Assembly (NCBI RefSeq): GCF_009827635.1
Contig: NZ_WTYW01000001.1
Location: 700,001 to 764,000 of the forward strand
Source of the DNA: Parapontixanthobacter aurantiacus
GTDB taxonomy: Bacteria > Pseudomonadota > Alphaproteobacteria > Sphingomonadales > Sphingomonadaceae
Direction of reading: 5' to 3'
DNA length: 64,000 nt
Shown: positions 9,267 through 10,177 of the stretch, in pieces
How positions within the stretch are numbered: the stretch's first letter is position 1
How the letters are laid out: the number at the start of each line of letters is the position of its first letter
Program-made: the position numbers and the translations under genes
The notes under the pieces: generated by a model
Databases searched by the model: none
Seen by the model: only the letters and a program-made list of their open reading frames with translations
Told to the model about the DNA's origin: nothing

Positions 9267-9306
9267 AAACAAAAGGGCGGCCCTCAACAAAGAGGAGCCG
9301 CCCTTT
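9267..9306 (-). terminator. factor-independent terminator between short ORF and ilvE
   Basis: On the minus strand AAAGGGCGGC and GCCGCCCTTT form a perfect 10-bp stem with a 15-nt loop, followed by TTTTGTTT. An upstream GCCGC (9316-9320) could pair instead with the GCGGC of the 5' arm, giving a competing 5-bp structure. It ends the short transcript described at 9355-9414 and lies in the ilvE leader. Confidence 0.7.
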
Positions 9307-9354
9307 CATGGGTCAGCGGCCGGAAGTGCCGCCGACGAAACCTTTACCGCGTCT

Positions 9355-9414
9355 TCAACCGCGATAATGCTCCGCCTGGAACTTTACCGACCCCCTTGCT
9401 GAACCATGAGACAT
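9355..9414 (-). CDS. 19-aa ORF with near-perfect Shine-Dalgarno upstream of ilvE
   Basis: The ORF encodes MSHGSARGSVKFQAEHYRG. It is preceded by AAAGGAGGTGATCC (9416-9429), almost fully complementary to the 16S rRNA 3' tail and ending one base before the ATG. After the TGA the same frame continues for 13 codons (RRGKGFVGGTSGR) to a second TGA, then the 9267-9306 terminator. The peptide has no Leu, Ile or other run expected of a classical ilv leader. TAAATA at 9434-9440 could be a -10 element. It may be a small protein gene, a leader peptide or part of a small RNA. Confidence 0.4.
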   Translation of the reverse strand: MSHGSARGSVKFQAEHYRG

Positions 9415-9564
9415 CGGATCACCTCCTTTCGCGCTATTTAGCCAGAGCCTGCCGTTCACCGGGAAGCCCAAGACCGCGTTCGCCGCTGATCTTGAAAAGC
9501 AATCTGCTGTTCGCAACCGCAAAATGCAAGGGGCGATTTACGAGATTTTCACAGCGTAATTTCG

Positions 9565-9604: not shown

Positions 9605-10177
9605 CTATCGGCAATCCTCGATCACGCGGCTGACTTCAGGCCAGGCGGGAACGTATATCGAGGGATAACCGTCCATCTCGATCGCGAACCGGCCTTTGGT
9701 AATGGCCATGGCATCGAGGATCGGGTCTCGCGGATCGACCACCGCTGTTTTCAACTTCCGGCCTTCGGGGTCGGGTGGTGCGACGAAGCTCTTTGTCGCT
9801 GTCTCCGTCTTGATGACCATTTGCGAAGTCGTGATTCCGTCGACGCTACGTCCGATGAGGACATTTCCGCCAGGACTGCATGTCAGCCGCAGCAGCGTCT
9901 CTCCCTGCGGAGTGTCGAAGGTGGCGAATGTGTAGAGTCGCCGCGTCTGTCCGACCTCCTCGCGCCCATAACTCCAATCGCCTGGCGTTTGCGGCGCATC
10001 GAGATAATTCTCGTATTGCGGAACGGGCGGGGGCGGTGCGGGGGTCGGCGTCGGCGTCGGCGCGGGAAGCGGCTGCGAAACAGGGGGCGGGGCCTCTTCG
10101 GGGACGGAGGGGATACAGGCCGCCAGAGTGAAACTCAGCGCAATCGCGCCCGTAAGATGCAGATATATCGGTTTCAT
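9605..10177 (-). CDS. proline-rich lipoprotein of unknown function
   Basis: 190 aa. The signal peptide ends in a lipobox (LSFTLAAC), so the product is probably a membrane-anchored lipoprotein. After the Cys comes a Pro/Ala/Thr-rich spacer with repeated PT dipeptides (about residues 24-55), then a folded domain of about 135 residues that I do not recognise. GGAGG lies just 3 bp before the ATG, close but usable. It is divergent from tlyA, with 34 bp between the start codons. Confidence 0.65.
   Translation of the reverse strand: MKPIYLHLTGAIALSFTLAACIPSVPEEAPPPVSQPLPAPTPTPTPAPPPPVPQYENYLDAPQTPGDWSYGREEVGQTRRLYTFATFDTPQGETLLRLTCSPGGNVLIGRSVDGITTSQMVIKTETATKSFVAPPDPEGRKLKTAVVDPRDPILDAMAITKGRFAIEMDGYPSIYVPAWPEVSRVIEDCR

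Follow-up and report, generated by a model that had tools for sequence, protein, structure and literature searches.

Short alphaproteobacterial transcripts that carry a tiny ORF and a terminator are familiar from rnTrpL/peTrpL, an RNA tied to the trp genes, and the locus described here has a similar build. In Sinorhizobium meliloti this leader RNA and its peptide act in trans (PMC7298713, available text). Unlike rnTrpL, the RNA described here has no fixed downstream gene, and the peptide of its own type, the sphingomonad type, is not conserved. Sequences resembling a Shine-Dalgarno (SD) or anti-SD are also found in other small RNAs, namely the alphaR8 sRNAs SisA-D and the sponge CrfA. According to the available part of that work (PMC12559287), alphaR8 carries the anti-SD UUUCCUCCCU, whereas in our RNA it is the SD that is present, with its complementarity to the 16S tail. 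SD-16S pairing extended toward the start codon is described for Staphylococcus aureus in ordinary mRNAs (PMC13009471, available part), while here the RNA is a dedicated one, by estimate 165-230 nt long, and the complementarity covers 15 nt.

The Rfam family that this RNA resembles is CC2171 (Rfam: RF01867), which is typed as an sRNA gene and whose structure line contains neither an ORF nor an SD-masking helix of the kind called P0 below. No described function for CC2171 was found in the literature searched (the name together with Caulobacter, and RF01867). In the available text of the Rfam 15 paper, RF01867 takes up one line in the table of improved structures, and in that of a Mesorhizobium huakuii survey it is listed as MH_s33. 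A literature search with short stretches of the motif returned only the YbeY paper. Ribosome profiling in C. crescentus found ncRNA regions not to be translated, two ncRNAs of an earlier list excepted, as far as the available text of Schrader 2014 goes. Conservation of the start, frame, stop and SD pairing comes from the comparison presented here and is new relative to the Rfam entry as far as we have seen it. CcnA, which lies at the C. crescentus origin, is a different RNA.

The locus is part of a 64,000-nucleotide stretch of the Parapontixanthobacter aurantiacus genome, the whole of which is called the window. A sequence-only reading had noted a 19-codon ORF with 13 more in-frame codons after its TGA and a terminator with a 10-bp stem about 130 bp before ilvE. 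Inspection of the window confirmed these features, all of them on the minus strand (Table 1). The 13 further codons are present, and from the end of the terminator at 9267, with its T-run, it is about 130 nt to the ATG of ilvE, also on the minus strand, whose product is an aminotransferase class IV protein. The extent of 9267-9440 given in that reading has to be revised, as the alignment of promoter-like sequences suggests that the transcript probably starts upstream, near 9495 and not at 9440. The fold of the 174 nt has an energy of -81 kcal/mol (z -4.7), and 0 of 200 shuffles were as low.

Table 1. Features of the RNA locus in window coordinates
Feature	Position	Strand	Remark
Putative -35 element CTTGCA	9525..9530	-	Inferred by alignment to the conserved CTTGT/CTTGC of relatives
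Putative -10 element CAGATT	9501..9506	-	Inferred by alignment to TCACATT/CAAATT of relatives
5' hairpin CAAGATC-AGCGGCGAACGC-GGTCTTG	9469..9494	-	Present in Erythrobacter-like relatives
Extended SD GAAAGGAGGTGATCC	9416..9430	-	15-nt complement of the 16S 3' end
19-codon ORF MSHGSARGSVKFQAEHYRG, TGA stop	9355..9414	-	Conserved in start, open frame and stop zone, not in peptide
Candidate SD/start-masking helix P0, 5' strand CCGAU	9413..9417	-	Invariant in the sphingomonad type
Candidate P0, 3' strand GUCGG, within the invariant GGTCGG block	9387..9391	-	
P1 5' strand CATGGTTCAGC, within codons 3-6	9398..9408	-	Pairing common to both types
P1 3' strand GCTGACCCATG, directly 5' of the terminator	9307..9317	-	One extra C in the window
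P2 5' strand	9369..9376	-	Covarying helix
P2 3' strand	9334..9341	-	Covarying helix
P3 hairpin, arms 9367..9360 and 9351..9344	9344..9367	-	Covarying; stop codon within the loop
Intrinsic terminator with T-run	9267..9306	-	10-bp stem, covarying arms

At the gathering cut-off, Rfam detects only tRNAs in the window. A search with an E-value cut-off matched RF01867 over the full model (positions 1-159) with 45.2 bits and an E-value of 2.4e-8, which falls short of the gathering cut-off of 75 bits. Three out of eight related loci compared with Rfam are over this cut-off (91.2, 88.5 and 82.5 bits) and five are below it (71.4, 69.5, 66.1, 32.9 and 29.4 bits). The sphingomonad members sampled all score under it. 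In the other direction, a model for which 34 sphingomonad-type sequences alone were used recognizes all 11 CC2171-type loci it was given, with E-values from 1e-11 to 0.002. Because the RF01867 match is full-length and the models match both ways, the window RNA is, judged by its sequence, a divergent homologue and a sister type of CC2171, not a formal member of RF01867. The two can be aligned over their full length and have in common the 5' block GAAAGGAGGUGAUCC-NN-UGUCUCAU, P1 and the terminator; the sphingomonad type differs in the sequences of P1 and P0, and the window RNA has an additional 5' hairpin.

RF01867 was matched at E <= 0.01 in 61 of the 147 genomes of an order sample, none of which reaches the gathering cut-off, and all 61 belong to the family of the window. 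Three genomes of that family (G035, G080 and G097) have no RF01867 match at E 0.01 and nothing convincing with the model of 34 sphingomonad-type sequences (best E 0.05). Among the control genomes, Caulobacter vibrioides matches over the cut-off. Deinobacterium chartae, a control genome far outside the Alphaproteobacteria, has a weak RF01867 match. A pattern scan of named genomes yielded at least 120 loci; among the matches listed, 117 carry the motif and a short ORF and three Azospirillum loci are another gene. These 117 loci come from what we take to be Sphingomonadales, Hyphomicrobiales, Rhodospirillales and Acetobacteraceae, and Caulobacterales, the presumed Hyphomicrobiales among the matches listed being Bosea, Methylobacterium and Microvirga. 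In a class sample, 71 out of 385 genomes match with at most two mismatches and one matches the reversed pattern; out of 20 loci read, two (L158 and L161) are the other gene and are kept within the 71 genomes and their 72 matches. A phylum sample gave matches in 30 of 299 genomes, none of them outside the class.

For the comparison of loci, 144 exact-motif loci among the matches listed were reduced to 140, which divide into 69 sphingomonad-type loci (ATGTCTCATGG) and 71 CC2171-type loci. Left out were the three Azospirillum loci (L073, L103, L117), identical stretches and loci with less than 120 nt upstream. Of the 73 RF01867 matches listed, 30 were retrieved, and the six of these without the exact motif (L002, L003, L006, L009, L010 and L026) were kept apart from the set. 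Several CC2171-type loci come from sphingomonads, and both types occur in one genome in G005 and in Sphingomonas sp. Leaf21 (L104 and L129). The other gene is a different small gene (MSHGA..., signal-peptide-like), found at L073, L103, L117, L158 and L161 in Azospirillum and similar genomes. Its extended SD and start context are near-identical, and it encodes 56-58 aa in the two loci read to the stop.

The SD AAAGGAGGTGATCC of the window RNA lies at 9429..9416 on the minus strand, just 5' of the ATG at 9414; no second exact copy turned up in the 2.9 Mb genome, searched except for part of its 16S gene. The common block GAAAGGAGGUGAUCC is complementary to 15 nt of the alphaproteobacterial 16S end. 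For S. meliloti, the 16S end is given as a 39-mer, GGCUGGAUCACCUCCUUUCUAAGG... (PMC6943124, available text), and GAAAGGAGGTGATCC is the exact complement of 15 nt in it. This S. meliloti end served as our reference, and we infer that P. aurantiacus itself has the same tail. The duplex of the SD with the 15-nt tail has an energy of -28.8 kcal/mol. By the same measure, the best candidate start among the 257 ORFs of at least 100 aa in the window reaches -15.3 kcal/mol, and the best of 31,990 20-mers sampled elsewhere reaches -20.6 kcal/mol. The sequence-only claim that the SD matches almost the whole anti-SD and is the strongest in the window is thus borne out. The motif is the reverse complement of the 16S end, as would be a fragment of a 16S gene on the opposite strand; this explanation was rejected, as Rfam finds no rRNA in the window. 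A role as sponge for the alphaR8 sRNAs was rejected as well, since only the GGAGG core matches UUUCCUCCCU, compared with 15 nt matching 16S.

Among the 72 matches of the class sample, the 13-nt SD core has 11 changes, all from A to G, one of which is in one of the two matches to the other gene; the seven other fixed bases, which begin with the TG of the start codon, have 59 changes. In the six Rfam-model loci without the exact motif there are 7 core changes, six from A to G and one from C to T. All 18 of the 18 observed core changes still pair with 16S, as G-U or U-G, in searches of which that of the class allowed at most two mismatches, so that more diverged SDs would be missed. The 14th base, next after the core, is not C in 14 of the 72 matches (T in 9, G or A in 5), and the G or A of these five loci cannot pair with 16S.

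Behind this site, the start codon, the frame and an early stop are conserved. In the scan, in which the base before TG was left free, 75 of the 140 loci have A and 65 have G as the first base of the start codon, and none has C or T. The looser class sample has A in 38, G in 30, T in 4 and C in none of its 72 matches, and all six loci without the exact motif have A or G, with ORFs of 18-24 codons. In all 136 loci with more than 250 nt downstream, frame 0 runs for 14 codons or more without a stop; the other two frames are open over this length in 61-62% and 85-91% of the loci. The sphingomonad-type ORF stops after 16-20 codons in 66 out of 66 loci, exactly 18 in 57 of them, with TAA in 33, TGA in 26 and TAG in 7. 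In the CC2171 type, the stop follows after 14-33 codons in 70 out of 70 loci. As this position is kept as a stop in relatives, whether TAA, TGA or TAG, nothing supports read-through of the TGA into the 13 further codons, which was therefore rejected.

The sequence of the peptide behaves differently from its limits. Across 422 pairs of sphingomonad-type sequences, codon positions 1, 2 and 3 have 1006, 1301 and 687 changes, and N/S is 1.57 times neutral, which is not the pattern of purifying selection on the peptide. In the CC2171 type N/S is 0.54 of neutral, a value from only 24 usable pairs, so some constraint on that peptide is possible. Going by this comparison, selection keeps the 16S pairing, initiation and an early stop, and the peptide is not kept in the sphingomonad type. 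As start and stop are kept and the peptide is not, binding or using the ribosome seems to be the job of the RNA. The suggestion that so strong a site regulates by initiation and not through the peptide sequence fits this pattern in the sphingomonad type. The SD, the ORF and the hairpin, whose conservation in relatives the sequence-only reading had made its test, are all three conserved.

The structure was compared in 34 sphingomonad-type sequences. In the helices P0, P1, P2/P3 and the terminator, 96.4% of the cells are paired and 21 pairs show a double change. The covariation score of these helices is 0.326 compared with 0.165 in shuffles, none of 500 being as high, where the tested structure derives partly from the same alignment and the shuffles ignore relatedness. 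When the partners are slid out of register, pairing drops to 28-47%. P0 and P1 hardly vary in these sequences, so the covariation support comes from P2, P3 and the terminator. For P1 we used both types and anchored the 3' strand on the ATG before the terminator, which 120 of the 140 loci allow. P1 pairs 4-6 are formed in 108 of these 120 loci, compared with a mean of 53 and a maximum of 69 in shuffles. Within the CC2171 type the pairs are formed in 48 of 55 loci (shuffle mean 43, maximum 47); within the sphingomonad type they are formed in 60 of 65, compared with 60 in shuffles, a test without power.

P0 is a candidate helix between a stretch of the ORF and a segment made up of the 3' part of the SD and the base preceding the start. 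Some CC2171-type loci read (G)CUGGAUC(A/G)UC on the ORF strand, close to the 16S tail. P0 of at least 7 bp can form in 38 out of 70 CC2171-type loci, compared with 22% in shuffles and 14% with swapped 5' segments, and the longest has 11 bp. CCAG/CUGG is replaced by CCGG/CCGG in Roseomonas-like genomes, and L036 and L107 have other matched replacement pairs. A 5-bp P0, found in 62 of 70 loci, is hardly above shuffles (65%). With GG[AG]T[CT] as anchor, 37 CC2171-type loci were compared at the base preceding the start, which finds a matching partner in 30 (A-T 22, G-C 6, C-G 1, T-A 1) and a mismatch in 7. Two stricter tests gave weak results. Asking whether P0 is the unique best gave 1 of 20 against a permuted mean of 0.4, an outcome that G-U ties make uninformative. 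In the second test the register was set by the remaining positions; 39, 31, 44 and 23 of 70 loci pair at the four test positions, compared with 35, 27, 52 and 49% in shuffles. In the sphingomonad type the 5-bp P0 is found in 67 of 67 loci. Both of its strands are invariant there, so there is no covariation, and forms of 6 and 7 bp (22 and 8 of 67) are rarer than in shuffles (42% and 21%). P0 is not formed in the minimum-energy fold of the window RNA. In part of the relatives, the site could be hidden by a copy of the 16S tail within the RNA; in the window's own type, P0 is a candidate helix only.

Between the promoter and the SD, Erythrobacter-like relatives, the window included, have the 5' hairpin. 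In alignments of 23 and 21 chosen loci, double changes are seen at 5 of its 14 predicted pairs, and the covariation term is only -0.3.

A palindrome, CAAGnCTTG and usually TACAAGnCTTGT, overlaps the presumed -35 element in 59 out of 68 sphingomonad-type loci, about 102-108 nt before the SD (for example in L014, L020 and L027). Its background is 0.2% in shuffles, and it is found at no CC2171-type locus. In 48 of these 59 loci the palindrome is followed within 34 nt by GANTC, the CcrM site, and in 32 of them the nearest GANTC lies at a distance of 16 nt. Over -140 to -15, 58 of the 68 sphingomonad-type loci have a GANTC, compared with 37% in shuffles. The palindrome and GANTC at that spacing occur together 26 times in 59 genomes of the family, of which 24 are at this RNA. 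CC2171-type loci have GANTC 33-45 nt upstream in 24 out of 71 cases (10% in shuffles, 1-4 of about 70 in control regions). The promoter of the window RNA itself has neither the palindrome, whose left half CAAG is absent, nor GANTC at -10; both have been lost in the window, and the palindrome promoters likely have a dedicated regulator. Where GANTC is present, the promoters of this RNA may be under the control of CcrM/GcrA.

The window has a lipoprotein-like gene at 9605-10177 on the minus strand, whose product has no Pfam match. In 59 of 69 sphingomonad-type loci, a similar gene with the same orientation as the RNA ends no more than 1.5 kb before it, a similarity that may in part be compositional because these proteins are proline-rich. 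Clustering of the neighbouring genes gave only low-complexity or lineage-specific clusters. Of the two options offered by the sequence-only reading, an ilvE attenuator and an independent small gene or RNA, the latter agrees with the homology to RF01867 and the lack of a fixed downstream gene.

We lean towards the reading that the locus holds a stand-alone gene for a small RNA with the layout of a miniature mRNA, whose function lies in ribosome-driven switching between open and closed states and not in the peptide. The comparison points to it by the pairing-competent SD core, the kept start and early stop, and P1-P3 with the terminator closing the frame. Binding of 30S subunits to the RNA would be very tight and would lead to translation of the short frame, which would open the folded domain. 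Without a bound ribosome, the RNA would refold into P1, and into P0 where present, and hide part of the SD and the start. Being open with the ribosome bound and refolded with it unbound, the RNA would change its state with ribosome engagement. The output of such a switch might be competition for or a report on free 30S subunits, or the exposure of a trans-acting region. More specifically, and as a tentative and rather doubtful proposal, the RNA may capture 30S through the whole free 16S tail, mask itself in many members through the internal tail copy and buffer or sense free ribosomes, tied to CcrM/GcrA by GANTC. If ribosome capture is true, a small RNA would act on the translation machinery via its SD in many Alphaproteobacteria. 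The comparison also gives CC2171 a testable design, in which 16S pairing, initiation and early termination appear to be selected and the sphingomonad-type peptide does not. We rank ribosome capture above a gated base-pairing sRNA, and the latter above a fast-evolving microprotein.

Such a gated sRNA would have a dual function, regulating mRNAs in trans via P2/P3 or the terminator loop while translation of the ORF gates this region or the stability of the RNA. The terminator and promoter-like sequence of its own and the covarying hairpins agree with it, and a precedent for a trans-acting leader peptide and RNA exists in S. meliloti peTrpL (PMC7298713, available text). We nevertheless think it possible but rather improbable, as the stretch conserved across both types is the SD with the first codons and 16S is the partner with which the SD pairs best. 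Moreover, the available text of the C. crescentus RIL-seq study does not mention CC2171 by that name, though it may carry a CCNA_R number there. That the 18-25 residue peptide is functional and fast-evolving, making this a microprotein gene, is unlikely. Start, frame and stop are conserved as it would predict, N/S is below neutral in the few CC2171-type pairs, and a recurring Trp of that type is in frame in 41 of 71 loci, with 20 and 5 in the other frames. However, the Trp codon often lies within the 16S-tail-like sequence able to pair with the SD, which largely explains it, so we rejected it as a peptide signal, and sphingomonad-type ORFs change less at the third codon position than at the first two, with N/S above neutral.

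An untranslated antisense RNA to the 16S 3' end, affecting 16S maturation or 30S assembly, would account for the 15-nt complementarity and leave the constraints on start codon and stop unexplained; we regard it as very unlikely. The probability of a transcription attenuator of ilvE is close to negligible, even though an ORF and a terminator do precede ilvE at the distance given above. Among the sphingomonad-type loci, 62 have more than 900 nt of downstream sequence, and in 27 of these ilvE lies downstream within 1.5 kb on the same strand. It was found at none of the 71 CC2171-type loci, of which 59 have that much sequence, so its linkage is confined to part of the sphingomonads. The ORF has one Val codon and none for Leu or Ile. 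The GCCGC that had been proposed to compete with the terminator arm is largely conserved while the arm varies, and no conserved antiterminator partner was found when this pairing was examined.

Besides the two types, a few loci have other forms. L172, L173 and L174 are divergent relatives with the block GAAAGGAGGTGATCCTGTGTCTACC and ORFs of 34-35 codons, and they lack a CAT-type P1. L041, L070, L110, L129 and similar Sphingomonas loci have a longer form, in which a hairpin of the kind GGGGGGTATTCTCCCCC is inserted between the ORF and the 3' strand of P1.
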